Virus record (IMG/VR): IMGVR_UViG_3300022707_001851
Span: 1 to 26,950 of that record
DNA from: a virus
DNA length: 26,950 bases
Direction: 5' to 3' (one strand)
The notes under the pieces are model-generated. The model saw only the letters and a list, made by a program, of their open reading frames with translations. It made no database searches and was not told where the DNA came from. Of the stretch, positions 4,357 through 23,637 are shown one piece after another; position 1 is the first letter of the stretch, and each line of letters begins with the position of its first letter. Made by a program: the position numbers and the translations under genes.

Positions 4357-4863
4357 ATGTCAGACACGACAACAAACGCAATATTAACAGAAGATGAGAT
4401 TCAATCACTCTATCCCAATATTAATAAAGATATTGTTCTCAAAGGATTGGCGCAGGCAGAAGATAGACTGAAAGATTGCTTGACTACAAAAAAAGAGCTA
4501 GAGAAAAGAACGTTTGTCATCTTGTCTCTGTATGTCATAGTGCAGTTAGTCACGTTCTCAGTGTCAGAATTCTCACATATTAATCCATCTGTTTTTATGC
4601 TTACCTTCGGCTCTATACTTCTTCTTTTATCATTGAAGTCCTCTAATTATGGTGCTTTAGGGCGACTCCCAATCGTTTGGCTAAGAAAAGATGTTTTAGA
4701 TGGGAGTGATGAGGTGTATGTATTAACACTGGCTCATATCTTACATCGATGCACTAAGCAGATTAAAGTTAGTCTCAAGAGTAACAAATATAAATCGAGA
4801 CTACTTGATGCATCTATTTTGTTCGGCGCATCATCGCCTATAATATTTATGCTGTCTAAGTAA
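4357..4863 (+). CDS. Predicted inner-membrane protein of unknown function
   Basis: This 168-residue protein follows a strong G-rich ribosome binding site (CAGGGGGGG, 5 nt before ATG). Residues about 52-72 and 78-94 form two hydrophobic segments separated by a short loop, and a third weaker one lies at about 150-166. The N-terminal 50 residues are acidic and helical, and the middle is cytoplasmic-looking and basic. It sits between portal and minor head genes, where no membrane protein is needed for assembly, so it is probably a rightward accessory gene. Membrane proteins in such positions can act in superinfection exclusion, but I see no direct evidence for that here. Confidence 0.7.
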   Translation: MSDTTTNAILTEDEIQSLYPNINKDIVLKGLAQAEDRLKDCLTTKKELEKRTFVILSLYVIVQLVTFSVSEFSHINPSVFMLTFGSILLLLSLKSSNYGALGRLPIVWLRKDVLDGSDEVYVLTLAHILHRCTKQIKVSLKSNKYKSRLLDASILFGASSPIIFMLSK

Positions 4864-4921: not shown

Positions 4922-5464
4922 ATGACATGTATAGTTGCAATAAAAGATAAGAGTGGTGTGTATATTGGCGGTGATAGTCAGGCGTCAAGTGGGTTGGATG
5001 CATTTCAGAGAGAAGACCCAAAAGTTTTTAAAAAAGATAATATGATTTTTGGTTTTACAAGATCATATCGCATGGGGCAGCTTATTCAATATGCTATGCC
5101 TGAAATTATTTACAATACAACTGACCCTTTTGGATTTTTGTGCAAAGCTTTTATTCCTGAATTGCTTAAGTGCTTAAAAGACAATAACTATGCAAAAGTA
5201 TCAGACAATAAGGCATCGGGCGGCACTTTCATCATCGGTTTTCAAGGAAGGATTTTTTCTATAGAAGATGATTTTCAAGTAGCCGAGCCATCATATCCAT
5301 ATGATTCTTGCGGTTGCGGCAGACCTTACGCAATTGGCGCTCTTCATCAAATTATTAACATGGATTTGTCGACTAAAGTTAAAATTGGGCTAGCCATTGA
5401 AACAGCAGGAGAGTTTAGCAACGGCGTTGGCGGCCGCGTTGATTACGTTGAATTGAAAAATTAG
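4922..5464 (+). CDS. Proteasome beta/HslV-like Ntn hydrolase
   Basis: This 180-residue protein looks like a 20S-proteasome or HslV-fold N-terminal nucleophile hydrolase. It begins MTCIVAIKDKSGVYIGGDSQ. After removal of Met, Thr2 becomes the nucleophile T1, and Asp18 and Lys34 fall at the classical positions D17 and K33. A Gly-rich CGCGRPYAIGAL segment at about residues 136-147 matches the G-x-G loop and helix of this fold. It has no propeptide, like HslV, and a ribosome binding site AGGGGATAG. A separate U35 prohead protease is encoded at 8694, so this enzyme is not obviously needed for capsid maturation. Substrate and role are unknown; related genes occur in other phages. Confidence 0.8.
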   Translation: MTCIVAIKDKSGVYIGGDSQASSGLDAFQREDPKVFKKDNMIFGFTRSYRMGQLIQYAMPEIIYNTTDPFGFLCKAFIPELLKCLKDNNYAKVSDNKASGGTFIIGFQGRIFSIEDDFQVAEPSYPYDSCGCGRPYAIGALHQIINMDLSTKVKIGLAIETAGEFSNGVGGRVDYVELKN

Positions 5465-6334: not shown

Positions 6335-6808
6335 TTAATCTTTGTCACGCTCTGCTATACGTTCATCTATCCAAGCTTCAACGTCGCTTTCAAGCCATAT
6401 TCTACATTTATGATTTCTCTTGTCTTGTAGCTGTCTCTTGATTGAGCTGGGCATTTTTATTGAGTTGGGGAATACACCGGTACTTATCATATTTATGATT
6501 TGAGATTCGGATACGCTGATGTTACTGATTAAATCAAACGTTAATAGTAGTTGTTCATCATGTGTATCATTCCATTTTTCGATTAAGTCAGGAAGTGGAC
6601 TTGTTCTTTTTATATGATTTTTCAACCATTCTAAAATTTCACTTTCCAACCAAACCGCGGTCCTAGTGTCATTGTTACTTGCAGTCTTGCGTGGCCGCGT
6701 TAATTTAAAAGGCTTGGGAAATTTATTTTTATTTCTAAATACATGAATAGAGGTTTTATCATATTTAGTGAGTCGCATAACTTCAGATATTCTTATTAAT
6801 TTTCTCAT
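6335..6808 (-). CDS. Tandem AlpA-like DNA-binding protein, candidate Aca-type repressor
   Basis: This 157-residue protein appears to hold two AlpA/MerR-type winged-helix units. The first spans about residues 4-67 (LIRISEVMRLTKYDKTSIH ... VWLESEILEWL). The second spans about 92-153, with a diverged helix-turn-helix (VSESQIINMISTGVFP) and the matching end IWLESDVEAWIDERI. The paired WLES[ED]-x3-EW/AW signatures support an internal duplication. It is the second gene of a leftward operon, 24 nt after the AcrIF11-like gene, with AAGGATA as ribosome binding site. A DNA-binding protein directly after an acr gene is the definition of an aca gene, and Aca proteins repress their operon through inverted repeats in the promoter. 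An inverted repeat is present at 7300-7317. Alternatively it is an excisionase-like regulator. Confidence 0.75.
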   Translation of the reverse strand: MRKLIRISEVMRLTKYDKTSIHVFRNKNKFPKPFKLTRPRKTASNNDTRTAVWLESEILEWLKNHIKRTSPLPDLIEKWNDTHDEQLLLTFDLISNISVSESQIINMISTGVFPNSIKMPSSIKRQLQDKRNHKCRIWLESDVEAWIDERIAERDKD

Positions 6809-6832
6809 GATTTTATCCTTGTTTTATTTAAA

Positions 6833-7261
6833 TTATTTCAATCGTACTAAATCGCTTTCCCTTCCCAACATTGGAACGATATAAACTGTGCCTTGCTCGT
6901 CCTCTCCTCTGACAGCTTCGTACCCCATTTTTTTAGCGCATTCCCCTTGTTTTGCCTGTATCCACCAATCATCTTCACCGCTGAGGCCGTGTTCAATCGC
7001 GCTATCACTTCCATCTAGCAAATTTTCGGCTACATCAGTGTCAACATCTAGCGCGCTAGATATATGCGCTATAATTTCATCATCATGCAAATCAGAAGCA
7101 TCTACGATTTTGTCTTCATTAATATCGAGAGAATAAACAGCGCCAACGTTGCCCATGGCATACTCTTCATCTGAAAAGAAAAGACAATCATTAAATAATC
7201 CGTCTTTTGAAATAGCTTTTATTTCAGAAGGGCTTGTATGAATTACTGTATGCATTGTCAT
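6833..7261 (-). CDS. AcrIF11-like anti-CRISPR, putative ADP-ribosyltransferase
   Basis: This 142-residue acidic protein resembles, from memory, the AcrIF11 family, which blocks type I-F CRISPR-Cas by ADP-ribosylating the Cas8f subunit of Cascade. Shared features in order are: HTSPSEIKAI at residues 8-17 followed by G-x-F, LFFSDEEYAM at 27-36, YSLDI at 43-47, an acidic helical middle with VAENLL at 77-82, WWIQAKQG at 99-106, AKKMGYEAV at 109-117, DEQGT at 121-125, and the end MLG-x4-LVR-x-K. Asp121 corresponds to the Asp of the DE[HQ]GT motif implicated in catalysis. The start ATG at 7261 lies 7 nt after GGAG. It is the first gene after promoter A, with an AlpA-like regulator gene behind it. 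Confidence 0.75.
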   Translation of the reverse strand: MTMHTVIHTSPSEIKAISKDGLFNDCLFFSDEEYAMGNVGAVYSLDINEDKIVDASDLHDDEIIAHISSALDVDTDVAENLLDGSDSAIEHGLSGEDDWWIQAKQGECAKKMGYEAVRGEDEQGTVYIVPMLGRESDLVRLK

Positions 7262-7291: not shown

Positions 7292-7320
7292 ATTCTATAA
7301 CAGTGTGTGCATACTATCAA
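7292..7320 (-). promoter_or_regulatory. Moron promoter A with 18-bp inverted-repeat operator
   Basis: Read leftward there is a -35 TTGATA (7315-7320), a 17-bp spacer and a -10 TAGAAT (7292-7297). The spacer and -35 hold an operator-like element, plus strand ACAGTGTGTGCATACTAT at 7300-7317, a slightly degenerate copy of ACAGT-N8-ACTGT. It drives the AcrIF11-like and AlpA-like genes. A protein bound here would cover the polymerase site, so repression is expected. Confidence 0.8.
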
Positions 7321-12835: not shown

Positions 12836-13210
12836 TTATTTACCGATAAAGTCTTCTTTTAGAAGTTCTGATTTAATCAGATTACCGTATTCATTAAAAG
12901 TTTGAGAAAAAACACGATAAGGCAGACCTTTTACTAATGGGTTTTGTTTGACCATTTTTGCGCTGAGTGTTTGTAATTCTTGAGTTGTGTTTGCTGTAAC
13001 GGATAATTTTAAATCTTGATTGTCTGTTACTACTTGTAAAATATATTTTGCACCCATGTCGCTATCTGTTTCGCTCATAGTCTGACTCGGTATGCTGTGA
13101 CCGTTCTCTGCTCTTAATCTTAAGCCAAAAGGTTCGGGCTTTACACTTGATGAAAACTTAGCGCATGACTCGACTAGAATAGTGTCAGTGTTTGTTGAGT
13201 ATGTATTCAT
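12836..13210 (-). CDS. Leftward moron protein of cassette B, unknown function
   Basis: This 124-residue protein is alone in the second leftward cassette, inserted between head-completion and neck genes, and is driven by promoter B with ribosome binding site GGAGAA. Residues 9-23 (DTILVESCAKFSSSV) resemble residues 181-195 of the rightward tail protein at 13839 (GTILVESCPRISSSV). The DNA matches at about 35 of 45 positions in the same frame, so part of the gene may have come from that tail gene. The rest is soluble and mixed alpha/beta, without Cys-rich or membrane parts. Because it shares its promoter with the AcrIF11-like operon, it is a candidate anti-defence protein; I do not recognise a known Acr. 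Confidence 0.75.
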   Translation of the reverse strand: MNTYSTNTDTILVESCAKFSSSVKPEPFGLRLRAENGHSIPSQTMSETDSDMGAKYILQVVTDNQDLKLSVTANTTQELQTLSAKMVKQNPLVKGLPYRVFSQTFNEYGNLIKSELLKEDFIGK

Positions 13211-13214
13211 GTTT

Positions 13215-13231
13215 TTCTCCGTTTCGTTGAT
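13215..13231 (-). promoter_or_regulatory. Conserved leader and ribosome binding site of cassette B
   Basis: Read leftward it is ATCAACGAAACGGAGAA, the same 17 nt as in cassettes A and C, 4 nt before the ATG. Confidence 0.75.
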
Positions 13232-13239
13232 GTTGACTC

Positions 13240-13268
13240 ATATTACAACAGTATACACACACTGTCAA
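13240..13268 (-). promoter_or_regulatory. Moron promoter B with 18-bp inverted-repeat operator
   Basis: Read leftward there is TTGACA (13263-13268), a 17-bp spacer and TAATAT (13240-13245). The operator-like sequence read leftward is ACAGTGTGTGTATACTGT (13248-13265). It is identical to the operator of promoter C but in the opposite orientation relative to transcription. Confidence 0.85.
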
Positions 13269-17759: not shown

Positions 17760-17893
17760 AAAGTGTTTTCTCTGTAGTTCGATTTCTTGAAGGAGGCGCG
17801 AGCGTTGATTATTTGTTGAATATCCCAGTGACCGAACTTTTTTCATATATAGAAATATGCTCTGAGATGAGCAAAAAAGAGAATAAAAACTAA
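17720..17893 (+). CDS. Tail chaperone frameshift extension (GT-like C-terminal part)
   Basis: This frame has no usable start codon of its own and adds 57 residues after a -1 slip at 17714-17720, giving a fusion of about 209 residues. The extension is helical (VTVLQEDDTRKLLESVFSVV, then LEGGASVDYLLNIPVTELFSYIEICSEMSKK), and its TAA overlaps the tape measure ATG as TAATG. In lambda the corresponding T part binds the tape measure and recruits tube subunits. The open frame, slippery site and position agree well with that model. Confidence 0.75.
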   Translation, partial: VTVLQEDDTRKLLESVFSVVRFLEGGASVDYLLNIPVTELFSYIEICSEMSKKENKN

Positions 17894-19632
17894 TGGCACT
17901 ACCAATTTCCTTTAATATTAATCTAGATGATCATTATAGCCAGGTCGCAGCTAAAGTTACATTTGCCCAAAAAAAGTTTAACGACACAATTAAAAAAGGT
18001 GATGATAAGTTAAAAAAATACAATGATACTTTGAAGAAAACAGGCAGAGGCGCGGAAATTCTTGCCAGAAAAAATAGAGTTCTAAAGAAAAGATTTACAG
18101 ACCTTAAAGGTGAAGCAATCGGCTTAGGCGCGACACTTCTAGCCGTGGCTTTCCCTATCAAACAGGCAATTAGGTTTGAATCTGCTATGTCCGATGTTAG
18201 AAAGGTAGTTGAGTTTAAGACTATTGATAATTTTAGAAAGTTTGGCGATCAAATACTTGTGATGTCTCAACAACTCCCAGTCTCCGCAGACGGATTGGCT
18301 GCAATGGCTGCGGCTGGCGGTAAATTAGGGATAAAAGCCGCAGAGCTACCAGGATTTATTAAGACAGTTACAAAAGCGACTGTTGCATGGGACATGTCGT
18401 CAGAAATGGCGGCAGACTCATTAGCTAATTTATCAAATAGAATGGGTATCCCTATTGATAAGATTGAAGAGTTGGCTGATGCAATAAATTTTATGACAGA
18501 TTCAACATCAGCAAAAGTGCCAGCGTTATTACAAATATTGGGAAGATTATCAGGTGAATTCACAACATTAGGTGTATCGTCTGAAAAAGCGGTGGGCTTT
18601 GCCACTTTTGCCGCTTTAGTAGAAGTCACGCCACAATTAGCGGCGTCCGGCTTTAGACAGATGCTTCAAAGAATGCGCGATATTCCTAAGATGACTGAAA
18701 AACTTGTAAAGAATCCAGAAAAAGCCATAACCGGATTACTCTCTAGGTTATCTGACCTTGGAACATTAGAAAGAATAAAACTTATTGATGAAATTTTTGG
18801 GCCAGAAGCAGGTAAATTTGTTTTAAAAGCAACAGCGAAATTTGAATTATTAGGAAAAACGCTAGAAAAAGTTGCAGATAAACAAAATTTTCTAGGGTCT
18901 TTGCAGCGAGAATTTAACATAAAATCAGAAACAACAAGCAAAAAACTGCAACTAATGAAGAATAGATTTGCTGCTGTAGGGATAAAACTTGGCGAAGCTT
19001 TTTTACCTATTTTGAAAGTTACTGCGGCTGTACTTGGTACTATCGCGATTGCGTTGTTCGCGGTTCTTGTGCAGTTAGAGCCAATAATGCCATTGATTGG
19101 CTCATTAGTGGGTATATTTGTTGTGTTAAAAACGGCTGCGCTGTTAACGAGATTGTGGGGCATAGCAATGGGATTTTTAAAAGTAAACGCTCTTGCCGCC
19201 TTGTCTCCGACAATTAAAGCTATCGGCTTCTTGAGCGCAGCGATTATTTTTGCGGTAGATAGTATTATAAAATTTAAAGAGCAATTTACCTTTAGTGGAT
19301 TAGCAAAGAAATTTCTTGCTGGTGAGCTTAGCATTGGCGATGCTTTTAGGAGCCAAGAGAGTTTTGCTGCTAAAAATAGGGAGGCGACTAGAAAGATATT
19401 TGAAAATGTTAAGAGTAAAAATATAATCCCTGGAGCTGTGAACCCAATCACTGGTGTTGCGAACCCAGTCCCTGGGCCTGTTCCTGGGCCACAAAAAATA
19501 AGCGGCTCAGTCGATACAAATATTAACGTTTCAGCAACAGCAGGAACAAGGGTTAATTCAGTGGAAACGACTACAGCAGGTGCGGCCAGAACCGCTGCGA
19601 TCAATATGAACACAGCGGGGGCATTTGCTTAA
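17893..19632 (+). CDS. Tail tape measure protein
   Basis: This 579-residue protein sets tail length and probably travels with the DNA on ejection. The N-terminal part is helical and Lys-rich. Residues about 95-265 match the TP901-type tape measure core (SAMSDVRKVVEF, MSQQLPVSADGLAAMAAAGGKLGI, LANLSNRMGIPIDKIEELADAINFMTDST). A hydrophobic membrane-like region lies at about 370-425, and the end is Ala/Thr/Pro-rich. By the usual 0.15 nm per residue rule the tail would be about 85 nm, which is short. The gene ends 16 nt before the end of the convergent leftward accessory island. Confidence 0.9.
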   Translation: MALPISFNINLDDHYSQVAAKVTFAQKKFNDTIKKGDDKLKKYNDTLKKTGRGAEILARKNRVLKKRFTDLKGEAIGLGATLLAVAFPIKQAIRFESAMSDVRKVVEFKTIDNFRKFGDQILVMSQQLPVSADGLAAMAAAGGKLGIKAAELPGFIKTVTKATVAWDMSSEMAADSLANLSNRMGIPIDKIEELADAINFMTDSTSAKVPALLQILGRLSGEFTTLGVSSEKAVGFATFAALVEVTPQLAASGFRQMLQRMRDIPKMTEKLVKNPEKAITGLLSRLSDLGTLERIKLIDEIFGPEAGKFVLKATAKFELLGKTLEKVADKQNFLGSLQREFNIKSETTSKKLQLMKNRFAAVGIKLGEAFLPILKVTAAVLGTIAIALFAVLVQLEPIMPLIGSLVGIFVVLKTAALLTRLWGIAMGFLKVNALAALSPTIKAIGFLSAAIIFAVDSIIKFKEQFTFSGLAKKFLAGELSIGDAFRSQESFAAKNREATRKIFENVKSKNIIPGAVNPITGVANPVPGPVPGPQKISGSVDTNINVSATAGTRVNSVETTTAGAARTAAINMNTAGAFA

Positions 19633-19648: not shown

Positions 19649-19999
19649 TCAATTGATTTCTAGTTTGAATCCTCTGAAATTTATTTTAGCAGTATCAACT
19701 GTTTTTTCTTCGTTGAGAAAAATACAAAAATAGTTGACTTTTTCCCATGCTCCATGTCGGTTCTGCACTTTTAAATTATCGCCAATATAGCCGGTCATAT
19801 GTTCGTTTTGTTCAAGAACATCAAACTTAGAATCAAACAAGCCATCAGTCCATTCATATTCAAATGGTCTAAGATCTTCTATTGCAGTTTTACATTTATT
19901 AGTTGGCGAATTTTTGTAGATTAAATTAGCGGCTACAATAATTGCAATACAAATAAAAACTGCTAATAACACAATAATTTTTAATTTAAAATTTTTCAT
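19649..19999 (-). CDS. Leftward accessory protein with N-terminal membrane anchor
   Basis: This 116-residue protein starts MKNFKLKIIVLLAVFICIAII, a basic start followed by one hydrophobic helix at about residues 8-27, so it is probably anchored in the inner membrane with the rest in the periplasm. The soluble part has two Cys (CKTAIEDL and NYFCIFL) that could form a disulfide. It is the last gene of the leftward island. Small membrane-anchored periplasmic phage proteins can block superinfection at the DNA entry step; that is a possibility only. Confidence 0.7.
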   Translation of the reverse strand: MKNFKLKIIVLLAVFICIAIIVAANLIYKNSPTNKCKTAIEDLRPFEYEWTDGLFDSKFDVLEQNEHMTGYIGDNLKVQNRHGAWEKVNYFCIFLNEEKTVDTAKINFRGFKLEIN

Positions 20000-20053
20000 T
20001 GTTTTTCCTTGTAGTTTAGTTAAAGTTATTCGAGCGTTTCGGTTGGTTTCGGT

Positions 20054-20350
20054 TCAATCGAGTATTTTGTGGTAAATCATTTCGTTATTTTTGGTGTTAA
20101 TGATTCTTAATAGATATCTTTCGTATTTGCAGCTCCATGATGAAATCGCCAATCGTACAAGAGATTCAAATGATTCTGTCACTATGCGACTGATTGTTTC
20201 TTGGTCATGAATCAATTGGTCGGTTTGCAAGTAAGTGTCGTCGTCATTGAAATACAACGTAGGCGTACCAAGCATTTTAATTTTCGGCGGGTTGTGACTG
20301 TGAGTTTCAATTTCAATTTGGTCTAGTTTTATTATGTATTGGTCTTCCAT
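20054..20350 (-). CDS. Leftward accessory protein, unknown
   Basis: This 98-residue soluble acidic protein has ribosome binding site AGGA. It has a beta-rich first half (YIIKLDQIEIETHSHNPP, LGTPTLYFNDDDTYLQ) and a helical second half (ETISRIVTESFESLVRLAISS), ending in a strand pair. No known motif is visible. It is part of the closely spaced leftward island downstream of promoter C. Confidence 0.7.
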   Translation of the reverse strand: MEDQYIIKLDQIEIETHSHNPPKIKMLGTPTLYFNDDDTYLQTDQLIHDQETISRIVTESFESLVRLAISSWSCKYERYLLRIINTKNNEMIYHKILD

Positions 20351-20375
20351 GATTGTTGTCCTGGTTGATTGCGGG

Positions 20376-20696
20376 TTATTTTTCTATCCAAAAATGATAG
20401 GTATAGCTTCCGCAAGGAGGGCGGTAGTCTGTTAATTCTTTTATAACAGCATAGGGCGCGTCAGAATCACGCTCTATCATATCGTTGTCATATAAATACT
20501 TGAGCAATATTTTTTTGTAGTCTGGGTATTGCCGCCAATCAATTTTTATTGCGCCTATGGGCGAGTTAGCCGCCTTAACCGAAAGCTTTAAGTTTTTATA
20601 GATGTATATTTGTCCGTGCTTATATCTGGCGCTAGACGGCTTACAATCAATTTCCTTTTCATCAATTATGATTTTCGGGTTTTCTATTTTTGGCAT
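20376..20696 (-). CDS. Leftward accessory protein, unknown
   Basis: This 106-residue protein starts at the ATG at 20696, preceded by AAGGATAG. A start 12 codons further upstream is possible but overlaps the previous small gene and lacks a good ribosome binding site. The sequence is basic and mixed (IIIDEKEIDCKPSSARYKHGQIYIYKNLKLSVKAA), with a helical stretch around YPDYKKILLKYLYDNDMIE and a beta end. The family is unknown. The size and context fit anti-defence or host-modulating proteins. Confidence 0.68.
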   Translation of the reverse strand: MPKIENPKIIIDEKEIDCKPSSARYKHGQIYIYKNLKLSVKAANSPIGAIKIDWRQYPDYKKILLKYLYDNDMIERDSDAPYAVIKELTDYRPPCGSYTYHFWIEK

Positions 20697-20715
20697 AGTT
20701 CTATCCTTGGTTGAT

Positions 20716-20853
20716 TTACATGACTCTAACAATAAGAAAGATTGCTAGATTGATAAATGTACCTATAACGACTCCGATTATGAGTCCGGTAAAGAAATCC
20801 GTCTCGGTTACTAGCTTACAATGTGCGCATTTACTGTCCATTTTTATTTCCAT
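20716..20853 (-). CDS. 45-residue CxxC membrane micro-protein
   Basis: This leftward open frame sits in the gap between two accessory genes. The product has a short N-terminal part with one CAHC pair (CxxC), and then a single hydrophobic helix over about residues 20-43 (FFTGLIIGVVIGTFINLAIF), ending in RVM. A second ATG at 20841 with GGA upstream would give 41 residues. The gap would otherwise be a 174-nt hole in a compact operon, which supports a real gene. The rightward frame over the same bases (20711-20959) is treated as a shadow. Confidence 0.55.
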   Translation of the reverse strand: MEIKMDSKCAHCKLVTETDFFTGLIIGVVIGTFINLAIFLIVRVM

Positions 20854-20870
20854 TATCCCAGTTGATGAAG

Positions 20871-21071
20871 TTAAATTCTTGAAAAGTGAGTTATATATGC
20901 ACCAGAAAAGTTTATGTCGTGCTTATGCGTGGATTCAGCAAGAGCCACTGCGCCTTTAAATGCATGATTAGCGTTTGGGTAAAAAGACTTTAATGACACT
21001 ATGCCAGAGACACGGCATTTATCGCTATCTATGCCATACTCATATCTATAAAAATACTCTCGCTTTATCAT
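20871..21071 (-). CDS. Leftward accessory protein, unknown
   Basis: This 66-residue protein starts in an ATGA overlap with the gene upstream of it in the operon. It begins with an aromatic and basic stretch (MIKREYFYRYEYGID), followed by KCRVSGIVSLKSFYPNANHAFKGAVALAES. It is soluble and probably one small alpha/beta unit. No family is recognised; the coupling supports expression. Confidence 0.68.
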   Translation of the reverse strand: MIKREYFYRYEYGIDSDKCRVSGIVSLKSFYPNANHAFKGAVALAESTHKHDINFSGAYITHFSRI

Positions 21072-21454
21072 GATGGTTGCTCCTGTTGTGCGTCTAAAAG
21101 CTCTTGGCAGTCTTGAGCGGTGAATGTTTTGCGTAACAATAAAGGCAGCACTAAATCAGTACCGAAGTGTAGCGCTTCACTGACGCAGCCAGAGACATGA
21201 CACCGCAATCTGTGATTGCTGCAATAGATTGAGTCCACATTATTTGGGTGTAGTTTAAAGTTTTGCGCTTTGCTAAAATCGACAGAAAAATTACCCTCGA
21301 TATCACCCTCAATTAAATTGTATTCACATTCAACCGATTCACCGATAATTTTTTGAGCTTTAGCTTTGATAAATGTAAGCTTCATATCACTACCCAGCTT
21401 TTCTTTCAGCGCTTGCAGCTTATCGTTAAACTTTTGTATGGTTTCGGGTTTCAT
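21068..21454 (-). CDS. Leftward accessory protein with four Cys, unknown
   Basis: This 128-residue protein is coupled on both sides by ATGA overlaps. The N-terminal helix (ETIQKFNDKLQALKEKLG) is followed by a beta region (LTFIKAKAQKIIGESVECEYNLIEGDIEGNF). A Cys-rich part (YCSNHRLRCHVSGCV, with a further Cys at about residue 43) could bind metal. The end is helical (KTFTAQDCQELLDAQQ). The function is unknown. Confidence 0.7.
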   Translation of the reverse strand: MKPETIQKFNDKLQALKEKLGSDMKLTFIKAKAQKIIGESVECEYNLIEGDIEGNFSVDFSKAQNFKLHPNNVDSIYCSNHRLRCHVSGCVSEALHFGTDLVLPLLLRKTFTAQDCQELLDAQQEQPS

Positions 21455-21771
21455 TGGTTAGCCTTGGTCAAGTCGATAGTTTTTGAGTAAACCTCGTTGG
21501 ATTCAGTGCATTCCCATTGTTCATCGAGATATGTATTTTCCGCGATTGTTATTGTTAGTTGTTGGTCATCTGGAAATTCTGCTTTCAGTCTGGGTAAGAT
21601 AAAGTCTTTTATTATGTCTAGTGCATCTTGTTTGGTATAGAAATACTCTGGGTCTTCTCGGCCCATCGTATCAATGAATTTATTTTCGATTTTACACCAT
21701 TGATAAAATTCGTATTCATTACATCCACTAAAATCAATCTCGTTGCTTATTTCTATTGAGTATTTTTTCAT
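21451..21771 (-). CDS. Leftward accessory protein, acidic, unknown
   Basis: This 106-residue acidic protein has ribosome binding site AGGAAAG. It starts with a beta strand (KKYSIEISNEIDFSG), then an aromatic helical region (YEFYQWCKIENKFIDTMG), a helix around TKQDALDIIKDFILPRLK, and closing strands. Small acidic proteins of this kind are frequent among DNA mimics and inhibitors of host defence, but composition alone is weak evidence. It follows the 85-residue gene behind promoter C. Confidence 0.7.
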   Translation of the reverse strand: MKKYSIEISNEIDFSGCNEYEFYQWCKIENKFIDTMGREDPEYFYTKQDALDIIKDFILPRLKAEFPDDQQLTITIAENTYLDEQWECTESNEVYSKTIDLTKANQ

Positions 21772-21805
21772 GATGCTTTCCTGGTTGGGTCGTTGACTGA
21801 TGCGT

Positions 21806-22063
21806 TTATTTTATGCTCTCAACAAATGCGCGGGCTTGAGAATAAAGCGGGTGATTTTTAAAAAGGCAAACTTTCCTTTTCCCGTTGAGACCAAGAAATG
21901 ATAGTGCCTTGATGTTATTTTTGAATATTTTTTGTAAATTATTGCCAGAATTCTTTGATAGTATAGTTACACATTTTCGCGTATCAATTCCGTTATCTAG
22001 CACATAAGAAACATTTACTTTTTCTTTGCCGTTTGTCACGTTGAACTTGTTAAATTTAATCAT
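21806..22063 (-). CDS. First gene of cassette C, small basic accessory protein
   Basis: This 85-residue protein starts at the ATG at 22063, placed by the shared leader with GGAGAA. The longer in-frame start further upstream lies inside the leader and is rejected. The sequence is a beta-rich half (FNKFNVTNGKEKVNVSYVLD, RKCVTILSK), a helix, and a basic end with KNHPLYSQARAFVESIK. The family name is unknown to me. Its direct control by the same promoter/operator as the AcrIF11-like gene makes it the best anti-defence candidate of the island. Confidence 0.72.
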   Translation of the reverse strand: MIKFNKFNVTNGKEKVNVSYVLDNGIDTRKCVTILSKNSGNNLQKIFKNNIKALSFLGLNGKRKVCLFKNHPLYSQARAFVESIK

Positions 22064-22069
22064 TTTGCA

Positions 22070-22086
22070 TTCTCCGTTTCGTTGAT
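22070..22086 (-). promoter_or_regulatory. Conserved leader and ribosome binding site of cassette C
   Basis: Read leftward it is ATCAACGAAACGGAGAA, identical to cassettes A and B. The shared leader shows that promoter and translation signal travel together. Confidence 0.75.
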
Positions 22087-22094
22087 GTTGACCC

Positions 22095-22123
22095 ATATTA
22101 CAACAGTGTGTGTATACTGTCAA
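22095..22123 (-). promoter_or_regulatory. Moron promoter C with 18-bp inverted-repeat operator
   Basis: Read leftward there is TTGACA (22118-22123), a 17-bp spacer and TAATAT (22095-22100). The plus-strand operator sequence is ACAGTGTGTGTATACTGT (22103-22120), the reverse complement of which lies at the same place in promoter B. It should drive the eight genes from 22063 down to 19649. Confidence 0.85.
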
Positions 22124-22131
22124 GAGAAATA

Positions 22132-22145
22132 TGAAATAAATCTAA
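22132..22145. repeat. Left copy of 14-bp direct repeat bounding cassette D
   Basis: TGAAATAAATCTAA occurs here and again at 22426-22439, 294 bp away, in each case just upstream of a moron promoter. It suggests duplication or recombination at the cassette edge. Confidence 0.6.
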
Positions 22146-22345
22146 TCTTTTTCATCTTTTTTATCTTTTTTTCTTTCGCCTTCATACACATAGTAGTTGG
22201 GAAATCTGCTTGTATTTAAGCCTCTGATAAACTGGCTAACAACTTTATTGTCGTCGACGTGATGATAGTGCCCATGACGAATAACTTGCATTTCTCTTAG
22301 TCGGGTAGCGCGGTCCTGGCCCCGTTGTTTGACTGTTTTAGCCAT
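22142..22345 (-). CDS. Small basic protein of cassette D
   Basis: This 67-residue very basic protein starts at ATG 22345, 8-10 nt after AAGGA. An upstream in-frame ATG lies inside promoter D and is rejected. It starts with AKTVKQRGQDRATRLREMQVIRHGHYHHVDDNKV and ends with a charged Lys/Asp/Glu tail. The His-rich HGHYHH segment could bind metal or nucleic acid. It is the only gene between promoters D and C. Its function is unknown; a nucleic acid-binding role is plausible from charge alone. Confidence 0.65.
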   Translation of the reverse strand: MAKTVKQRGQDRATRLREMQVIRHGHYHHVDDNKVVSQFIRGLNTSRFPNYYVYEGERKKDKKDEKD

Positions 22346-22385
22346 AATTTTATTTTCCTTAATTTGAATAAATGATATTGCAGCT

Positions 22386-22414
22386 ATTGTATATAAGTAT
22401 GTACACACTGTCAA
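22386..22414 (-). promoter_or_regulatory. Moron promoter D with operator variant
   Basis: Read leftward there is TTGACA (22409-22414), a 17-bp spacer and TACAAT (22386-22391). The operator read leftward is ACAGTGTGTACATACTTA (22394-22411), the most diverged of the four. Its leader does not carry the 17-nt block shared by A, B and C. Confidence 0.75.
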
Positions 22415-22425
22415 GATATGCATTT

Positions 22426-22439
22426 TGAAATAAATCTAA
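22426..22439. repeat. Right copy of 14-bp direct repeat bounding cassette D
   Basis: TGAAATAAATCTAA matches 22132-22145 exactly. It lies between promoter D and the start of the gpN-like gene, marking the edge of the accessory island. Confidence 0.6.
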
Positions 22440-22447
22440 GTTTTTTT

Positions 22448-23251
22448 ATGATTCCATTTAATGAGCTAATACCCGCGTCATTCAACGGTGTACCGTTTTT
22501 TTGGCAATCGGAAACAGCGAGCGGTGGCCCAAAATCTGTAACGCATGAGTACCCAAACAGCACAAAAAGATTTGTCGAGTTCTTAGGTGTTAACGAGGAC
22601 ACTTTTACCGTCAACGCCACGATTGACAATGAAAACTATCGATCAAATCTCAATGCGCTAAAAGCAGAGCTTAGAAAGCCAGAAATTGGCACGCTGGTAT
22701 TACCACTCATTGGCAGCATTAAGGTCGCTGTCAAGGGCTTTACGGTCTCACAGTCTAAAAGTCAACTGGGTCGTCCTGATATTTCAATCACGTTTGAGCA
22801 ATCAGACAACAGCCAGACACAACCGCAGCCCGAGGTAAGTAATCAGGCGCAGGTGGCAGAGAGCAGCACTAAATCACAAGACAGCTTGGAAGATAACGTC
22901 AAGGATAATTACGGCGTATCACTGTCATTTCCTGATAATTTTGATGATGCACAGGCCACAATCAATGCCGCCGTTGAAGCTTTTGACAGAAACACGCAAG
23001 GTATCAGGTCAAATGTCACCGCAGCGAATACATTTAATCGTCGAGTCGTAAAGGCGAAAGCGGATATTATTAACCTCATAAATAAGCCAGATGAATTGGC
23101 CTCAACAGTGCGGGACTTATTCGATAACATGTCACTCTTAAATGATGACCCACTTGAGCGCGTAAAATTCACATCATTATTTTTTGATTTTGGCGATGAC
23201 TTCACGCCGATAAACCCCACATTGAGCGCAAGCGCAACCGTGATTTACTAG
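22448..23251 (+). CDS. Mu gpN-like DNA circularization/tail protein, N-terminal part (frame-broken)
   Basis: Residues 1-115 (MIPFNELIPASFNGVPFFW, HEYPNSTKRFVEFLG, LNALKAELRKPEIGTLVLPLIG, SQLGRPDISITFEQSD) match the N-terminal domain of gpN-type proteins, which in Mu sit in the baseplate and are named for DNA circularization. A Gln/Ser linker and helices follow, and a premature TAG at 23249-23251. The C-terminal domain continues in the -1 frame (see 23275-23637). A -1 slip at A AAC CCC (23212-23218) would give a normal protein of about 396 residues. ATG 22448 is chosen because it gives the conserved start; ATG 22418 adds residues from the moron flank. Neither has a good ribosome binding site. 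Confidence 0.8.
   Translation: MIPFNELIPASFNGVPFFWQSETASGGPKSVTHEYPNSTKRFVEFLGVNEDTFTVNATIDNENYRSNLNALKAELRKPEIGTLVLPLIGSIKVAVKGFTVSQSKSQLGRPDISITFEQSDNSQTQPQPEVSNQAQVAESSTKSQDSLEDNVKDNYGVSLSFPDNFDDAQATINAAVEAFDRNTQGIRSNVTAANTFNRRVVKAKADIINLINKPDELASTVRDLFDNMSLLNDDPLERVKFTSLFFDFGDDFTPINPTLSASATVIY
23212..23218 (+). other. Heptamer A AAC CCC at the gpN frame break
   Basis: In the upstream frame the bases read as the last A of ATA, then AAC and CCC, which fits X XXY YYZ. A -1 slip here enters the frame that carries the C-terminal domain. It is also a homopolymer region (AAA, CCCC) prone to indels or sequencing error. Confidence 0.45.
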
Positions 23252-23274: not shown

Positions 23275-23637
23275 TTGGCGCAAGCATACAATGATACTGC
23301 ATTAATCGAGTTCGATAATGTCAACGACTTGGACGCAACGGCAGACGCGCTGGACACTCAATTTTCAAAAGTCATTGAACTGCCTGAACTGAACAGCGAT
23401 ATTGTCAATAATCTATCTGACTTAAGAGCGCAAACACGCGCATTTCTTGATGATGAGAGAGTCACCGCCCCCAAAATTGAAATGATTAATGTGTTTCGTG
23501 TGCCAAATACCGTGTTAGCTTATCGATTATATGGTGACCTTGAAAATGATGAAAAACTACTTCGGCTAAATAATGTTAGGAACGTGTCACGCATTGAAGG
23601 CGATATAGATATTCTCTCTGGACAGACTGCATCATGA
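23275..23637 (+). CDS. gpN-like protein, C-terminal part in the -1 frame
   Basis: The frame is open from 23200, and the coding similarity begins before the TTG at 23275, so this is probably not an independent gene. The segment just upstream reads ERKRNRDLLGLNLQAGALAQ, and this part continues with ALIEFDNVNDLDATADALDTQF. It then has RVPNTVLAYRLYGDLENDEKLLRLNNVRN, the YRLYGD-x5-I/L-x-x-N-x-x-R signature typical of the gpN C-terminus. The stop overlaps the next start by ATGA. It needs a frameshift, a separate TTG start or a sequence correction to be expressed. Confidence 0.75.
   Translation: MAQAYNDTALIEFDNVNDLDATADALDTQFSKVIELPELNSDIVNNLSDLRAQTRAFLDDERVTAPKIEMINVFRVPNTVLAYRLYGDLENDEKLLRLNNVRNVSRIEGDIDILSGQTAS

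Follow-up and report, generated by a model that had tools for sequence, protein, structure and literature searches.

Why do nine small genes run leftward between the tape measure gene and a gpN-like baseplate gene in a viral genome whose late genes run rightward? The island in question (19649-22345) lies in IMG/VR virus record IMGVR_UViG_3300022707_001851, a sequence of 26,950 bases and probably a fragment, which was analyzed whole and is called the window below. It carries rightward late genes for terminase, an HK97-type capsid, a neck protein, tape measure, and gpN- and gpP-like baseplate proteins. An earlier note, made from the letters alone, had placed the island under two copies of the promoter of an AcrIF11-like operon and proposed its genes as candidate inhibitors of host defence. 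Our analysis indicates that the island is probably an accessory or anti-defence regulon, a variant of the acr-aca arrangement of anti-CRISPR (Acr) and anti-CRISPR-associated (Aca) genes, and that its genes probably serve the phage against host defences or against rival phages and do not belong to the virion.

Four promoters and three leftward clusters

Leftward genes were confined to three sites when the lists of open reading frames (ORFs) were read by eye: 6335-7261 with two genes, 12836-13210 with one, and 19649-22345 with nine. Four similar sigma-70-like promoters (A-D), each with a dyad inside a 17-base pair (bp) spacer, precede all three clusters, one of which is the acrIF11-alpA operon. 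Promoter A (TTGATA-17-TAGAAT, 7292-7320, -35 at 7320) stands before acrIF11 and B (TTGACA-17-TAATAT, 13240-13268, -35 at 13268) before an ORF of 124 amino acids (aa), while C (TTGACA-17-TAATAT, 22095-22123, -35 at 22123) precedes island genes g8-g1 and D (TTGACA-17-TACAAT, 22386-22414, -35 at 22414), which abuts the start of the gpN-like gene, precedes g9. All four are on the minus strand, fit TTGAYA-17 bp-TANNAT, and sit 58-69 nucleotides (nt) before a leftward start.

A 29-base position matrix built from A and B alone returned C (32.8 bits) and D (26.7 bits) as the sole other strong sites in the window. The next site scored 14.4 bits and lay on the strand opposite B itself, and the best score in 60 first-order Markov simulated windows was 17.2 bits. 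This matrix replaced a loose 15-base promoter pattern, which alone was not significant (5 matches vs. 3.2 expected). The spacer-region dyad has the form ACAGTRTRYRYAYACTGT, from which A differs at one base and D at the last ones; it is an imperfect dyad of 18 bp with 12 self-complementary positions in each of the four promoters. From the -35 on, a stretch that takes in the leader as far as the start codon, A, B, and C have 42-48 of 60 bases in common, C being the closer copy (47-48 of 60 with A and B). The case for a predicted promoter shared by the island and acrIF11 is strong, and the earlier claim that the island starts at two promoters of the AcrIF11-operon type was borne out.

The island itself consists of nine ATG-started genes on the minus strand, 45-128 aa long, that tile the 2.8 kb interval between the tape measure gene (17893-19632, plus strand; PHROG_28, E 2.7e-60) and the 5' part of the gpN-like, or DNA-circularisation, baseplate gene (22418-23251, plus strand; PHROG_184, E 2.2e-38; Pfam DNA_circ_N). 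Within this interval (2785 nt) ORFs of at least 45 aa cover 90% of the minus strand vs. 13% of the plus strand, and the minus-strand coverage was reached in none of 2000 second-order Markov simulations. Two gene pairs, g5/g6 and g6/g7, overlap by 4 bases, and a ribosome-site-like stretch (CAGGA, AAGG, or GGAG, read by eye) stands before the ATG of eight of the nine. For g9, g8, and g3 the starts at 22345, 22063, and 20696 were chosen, and the longest-ORF starts lie upstream of these. AT skew in the composition profile shifts at about 6-8 kb and about 19-22.5 kb, matching leftward sites. One weak minus-strand terminator-like site lies within g6, both strands together holding 3 such sites vs. 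2.1 expected. As far as can be judged from the sequence the nine genes are real, as the earlier note had described them. The gpN-like gene on their right is split into two ORFs in different frames (22418-23251 and 23275-23637). Of the 411 positions of PHROG_184, the first ORF matches 9-235 and the second 302-402; the split may come from an error in sequencing or from prophage decay, or it may be genuine.

The acrIF11 operon and its candidate regulator

The first gene behind promoter A (6833-7261, minus strand) encodes a 142-aa protein that scored 124.1 bits over 6836-7261 against the NCBIfam equivalog model NF052490 (cut-off 50), placing it in the AcrIF11 family as the earlier note had proposed. 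It aligned along its length to PDB entry 8dwq (E 7.8e-16) and is 54% identical to a protein of Vibrio phage VaK. Directly behind it, 24 nt apart and on the same strand, lies a gene for a 157-aa tandem AlpA-like helix-turn-helix protein (6335-6808), the candidate Aca-type repressor of A-D. Residues 3-62 matched the Pfam domain Phage_AlpA (PF05930) at 32.9 bits (cut-off 21), and the second half of the protein resembles the first (BLASTP E 8e-6, a single comparison). Among the 23 window proteins scanned it was the sole helix-turn-helix protein; it had no NCBIfam match at E≤1, in a scan not of an Aca-specific library. A helix-turn-helix gene adjacent to the acr gene is what acr-aca operons have, and in the passages of the Aca survey at hand the inverted repeat of each Aca family lies within the core promoter (PMC9410906), which is where the dyads of A-D are located. 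From these features the tandem AlpA-like protein is likely to be the repressor of A-D.

Comparison with VaK bears on the same point. The 11-mer CGAAACGGAGA is common to the leader of the VaK acrIF11 homologue and to the window, a match reached in 2 of 2000 shuffles. A different small gene then follows, for a 65-aa protein annotated as hypothetical, and the spacer holds a different repeat, GTCCC-N5-GGGAC, between -35-like TTGATT and -10-like TATTAT; this was read by eye, and the repeat tool, with its six-base minimum, did not list this five-base repeat. It looks as if regulator and operator had been exchanged together around a conserved acr gene. The VaK locus (L007 7930-8632) appears to be an acr-aca operon that annotation has missed, in a group of phages of Vibrio anguillarum; a search matched 22 Vibrio records.

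Because of the adjacency, the operator placement, and the VaK comparison, a single regulon under the AlpA-like protein is probable. With A-D shared and the AlpA-like protein their likely repressor, the three dispersed leftward clusters, 12 genes altogether, look like one regulon. The explanation we favour, with confidence somewhat above even, is that a dispersed, AlpA-controlled accessory regulon, with cargo that protects the phage, has its largest cargo site in the island. On entry of the DNA, promoters A-D would fire at once, and AcrIF11 and the island proteins would be made. The tandem AlpA protein would then build up, bind the spacer dyad, and shut off all four promoters, so that leftward transcription would not clash with late rightward transcription of the tape measure and baseplate genes. 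The cargo would meanwhile protect the phage, or the prophage, in the cell.

Island products, the junction, and competing explanations

Seven of the nine products are neither membrane nor secreted proteins by hydrophobicity; g1 and g4 are membrane proteins, as the earlier note had said of two. Gene 1 (19649-19999; all island genes are on the minus strand) encodes 116 aa with an N-terminal membrane helix (hydrophobicity 3.16 at residue 9) and a C-terminal PHROG_13160 domain (E 1.4e-4). Gene 4 (20716-20853, 45 aa) has a CxxC motif and a membrane helix (hydrophobicity 2.81 at residue 24). Gene 2 (20054-20350, 98 aa), gene 3 (20376-20696, 106 aa), and gene 5 (20871-21071, 66 aa) are orphans, as are gene 6 (21068-21454, 128 aa), which has five cysteines and not the four that had been counted, gene 7 (21451-21771, 106 aa), which is acidic with an isoelectric point (pI) of 4.3 and a net charge of -12, and gene 9 (22142-22345, 67 aa), which is basic (pI 9.8) and His-rich; the last two descriptions agree with the earlier ones. 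Gene 8 (21806-22063, 85 aa) is basic (pI 10.2) and has relatives in two phages.

No Pfam match above cut-off, to known Acr families or others, was obtained for the nine genes, and no NCBIfam match above cut-off for the seven scanned (g4 and g5 were not in the scan). Among PHROGs only g1 matched, to PHROG_13160 (function unknown). Weak Pfam, PHROG, and PADLOC matches (E 0.01-2) were taken as chance. A virion homologue would have spoken against an anti-defence role; at the Pfam and PHROGs thresholds used none of the nine matched a virion or structural family. The earlier note had also proposed a gene-neighbourhood search. Our tblastn searches against phages covered g1, g2, g3, g6, g7, g8, and g9 (g4 and g5 were not included), and neighbourhoods were obtained for g1 (repressor and tail genes) and g8 (helicase and endonuclease) only. 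These two alone matched at E≤0.01, and g2, g3, g6, g7, and g9 had no match at E≤1. Viral-contig scans returned no relative of g6 or g3; 369 genomes of one bacterial class returned none of g6, g7, g3, or the g8 alignment, a scan that had no positive control, so its emptiness says little. A single-sequence structure model of g7 had a predicted local distance difference test score (pLDDT) of 55. The g1 model had a pLDDT of 66, and its best Foldseek match, a designed small-molecule-binding protein at E 0.012, was dismissed as too weak.

The relatives of g8 are in Shewanella phage SppYZU01 (E 3e-9) and Variovorax phage V45v66 (E 2e-3). The SppYZU01 relative adjoins a putative endonuclease and is downstream of a helicase gene, a location in another phage that we count as a supporting point. 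Inhibition of host defence or takeover of the host is, in our view, the most likely role of the soluble orphans g2, g3, and g5-g9. Of these, anti-defence is the leading guess, since the promoter is of the type of an Acr operon and since in archaeal viruses promoters have successfully guided the discovery of anti-defence genes, a tested precedent in the passages at hand of that study (PMC11065993).

For g1, and perhaps g4, an envelope protein blocking the entry of competing phages is most likely. The C-terminal domain of g1 recurs in a 171-aa protein of a Pseudomonas phage contig, beside gpD, and in five proteins from bacterial genomes. In two Pseudomonas prophage-like regions (L018 7246-8240 and L020 7199-8240) a cI-like repressor gene is followed by the g1-domain gene, facing gpD, and in Kluyvera the g1-domain gene lies near a phage baseplate-V-like gene. 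The labels cI-like, gpD, baseplate, and zinc ribbon at these loci are our reading of the sequences by eye, with no search behind them; we take the g1-domain proteins of the Pseudomonas phage contig and of L018 and L020 to be zinc-ribbon/membrane proteins. The g1-domain gene of L018 and L020 is likely a lysogeny-expressed exclusion gene, and g1 itself appears to be what a superinfection-exclusion protein would be, the membrane-anchored product of a prophage-type gene.

The location of the island points the same way for g1. At the DNA level no close relatives of the phage were found among annotated phages, and neither the tape measure protein nor the AlpA-like protein had relatives in viral contigs; two contigs with capsids at 33% identity were found and not used as close relatives. 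Loci for comparison were taken by gpP. In seven annotated phages with a related gpP the tape measure and gpN genes are -1 to 50 nt apart; the one exception is Chromohalobacter phage YPCBV-1, with a gap of 258 nt that holds one leftward gene. Both genes were recognised in 38 of 80 viral loci fetched by gpP, giving 45 comparison loci with the seven phages. Measured to the first start codon, the gap is -38 to 23 nt in 27 of these, and 18 have an insert of 187-1339 nt, so the statement that the two genes are normally adjacent or close fits the former and not the latter; since the sample leans to relatives of YPCBV-1, itself insert-bearing, the insert frequency is not a population estimate. A single leftward gene fills the gap in 16 of the 18 (15 listed or annotated, and L021 read from printed frames), and in L086 and L093 the likely gene is rightward; strand was judged not from transcripts but from how long and how conserved the ORFs are and from their signal or membrane segments. 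A 19-residue hydrophobicity of at least 1.6 was reached by 12 of 14 measured leftward products vs. 4 of 13 mirror ORFs. The leftward products form six families (BLASTP 1e-3; L021 not clustered), to which two rightward ones are added. Ten of these cargo proteins were scanned: none had a Pfam match above cut-off, and three matched PHROGs at E≤0.01, in each case a family without a known function. The junction between tape measure and gpN genes is an insertion hot spot, and we found no literature describing it as one. Like a phage moron, the island has its own promoter and orientation and is missing at the same place in relatives. The largest comparison insert (L086 3357-4697, 1339 nt) carries a rightward gene for a 128-aa member of PHROG_5176 (unknown function), which looks HEPN-like to us by eye; a toxin-antitoxin or defence module may thus occupy this junction in L086.

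These inserts raise the possibility that the whole island is a lysogenic-conversion or superinfection-exclusion cassette, expressed from the prophage, whose membrane proteins would be matched to the tape measure protein encoded beside them and whose effect on host defence, if any, would be secondary. At least six unrelated families of mostly hydrophobic, singly inserted leftward genes, the location of g1 relatives behind a cI-like repressor gene and against gpD, and the prophage morons Tab and Ltp, aimed at tape measure proteins in the passages at hand (PMC10884400, PMC3952083), all fit such a cassette. We nevertheless consider it unlikely for the island as a whole: most island products are soluble, the island promoters match that of the acr operon, and the g1 domain is found outside evident prophages too (L016 and L017), two metagenome-assembled genomes with the domain having no evident prophage context within the ORFs listed. 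At least for g1 superinfection exclusion or lysogenic conversion is suggested: a membrane anchor and a domain that prophages also have fit the kind of gene that this junction holds elsewhere. Superinfection exclusion thus competes with anti-defence for g1, and for the same reason it is the leading guess for that gene.

Promoters C and D also share the stretch TTAGATTTATTTC upstream of the -35, so that g9 is flanked by direct repeats, which suggests that g9 was added through a repeated promoter module. The module could then be a duplicated boundary by which unrelated morons accumulate, with cargo of no common function. A and B are alike at 33 of 50 bases further upstream, and no relatedness was seen between any of the nine products, as such a boundary would have it. 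We think this improbable as the full explanation, for the -35, the 17-bp spacing, the -10, and the dyad are kept in all four promoters though the rest of D diverged, and selection on promoter and operator function is therefore suggested. Their location between tail genes would also allow the genes a late accessory part in the tail or in assembly, which we regard as highly improbable given their opposite strand, their own acr-type promoters, the lack of a structural homologue, and the 27 of 45 loci without an insert.

Several observations weigh against the AlpA-controlled accessory regulon that we favour. D has only 28-33 of 60 bases in common with A, B, and C, its likeness being limited to the core with the leader not shared. 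The full promoter pattern had no match in other viral contigs. Another regulator, in or outside the fragment, may be responsible instead; the term AlpA does not occur in the passages of the Aca survey at hand (PMC9410906), and no literature joining AlpA with Aca was found. PADLOC returned nothing better than E 0.016 for the island genes, relatives were found for g1 and g8 alone, neither of known function, and no homologue with a tested function turned up for any of the nine. Cargo at the same junction elsewhere is mostly envelope proteins, not soluble inhibitors. The earlier argument from shared regulation thus stands in part: regulation shared with acrIF11 is well supported, but there is no homologue of known function and junction cargo elsewhere is usually membrane or secreted. 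For the soluble genes, candidate host-defence inhibitors is a fair hypothesis.

Three other loci in the window carry genes that may be accessory. The lone leftward orphan of 124 aa (12836-13210, minus strand) lies with promoter B (12836-13268) between head-closure-type and neck genes; it had no PHROG at E≤0.1, no Pfam match above cut-off, no NCBIfam match at E≤1, and no relative in the viral-contig scan. It belongs to the same promoter-marked set and is a candidate as good as any island gene. A 168-aa rightward protein with several hydrophobic segments (4357-4863), directly behind a portal-like gene and with no Pfam match at E≤0.1, is a possible further moron. Beside the head genes, an HslV-type peptidase family protein (4922-5464; PHROG_1040, E 2.9e-22) may stand in for a prohead protease or may be a moron.

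The probable regulon among known systems

In its most specific form the favoured explanation holds that twelve leftward genes, spread over three late-gene junctions, are controlled by a tandem AlpA autorepressor through four copies of its promoter/operator and each encode a new counter-defence or exclusion protein, and that in phages with Mu-like tails such genes generally dock at the junction of tape measure and gpN genes. This we advance tentatively, with confidence a little short of even. If true, promoter/operator matching would become a way to find anti-defence genes in bacterial phages, with about ten new candidates from one phage; acr control would extend to another type of regulator, a tandem AlpA protein acting on several loci; and the junction would be a named place to mine for exclusion genes.

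HK97 gp15 is a membrane or surface-exposed superinfection-exclusion moron product that acts on genome injection. Ltp is another, for which the passages at hand name the tape measure protein as the target (PMC3952083). Unlike these two, to which no sequence relation was shown, the island encodes membrane proteins in g1 and g4 alone. Tab of the Pseudomonas Mu-like phage JBD26 is a prophage moron able to act on tape measure proteins (PMC10884400, in the passages at hand). Like the island genes it is small and sits as a moron among the late genes of a Mu-like phage, and it recognises a tape measure protein; it differs in being situated between terminase genes, and the likeness drawn here is one of description.

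A closer parallel in regulation is offered by the early anti-defence regulons of archaeal viruses, in which, as far as the passages at hand describe them, unrelated small accessory genes, known Acrs included, stand under a shared strong regulatory sequence (PMC11065993). Here the virus is a bacterial phage, the promoter is of sigma-70 type with a spacer dyad, and the regulon is proposed from one genome and from its sequence alone. With the acr-aca operons, as far as they are described in the passages at hand (PMC9410906, PMC12421852), the window shares an acrIF11 homologue followed by a helix-turn-helix gene and an inverted repeat in the core promoter. It differs from them in that the regulator is tandem AlpA-like and that promoter and operator stand not just before the acr-aca pair but four times, at three loci.

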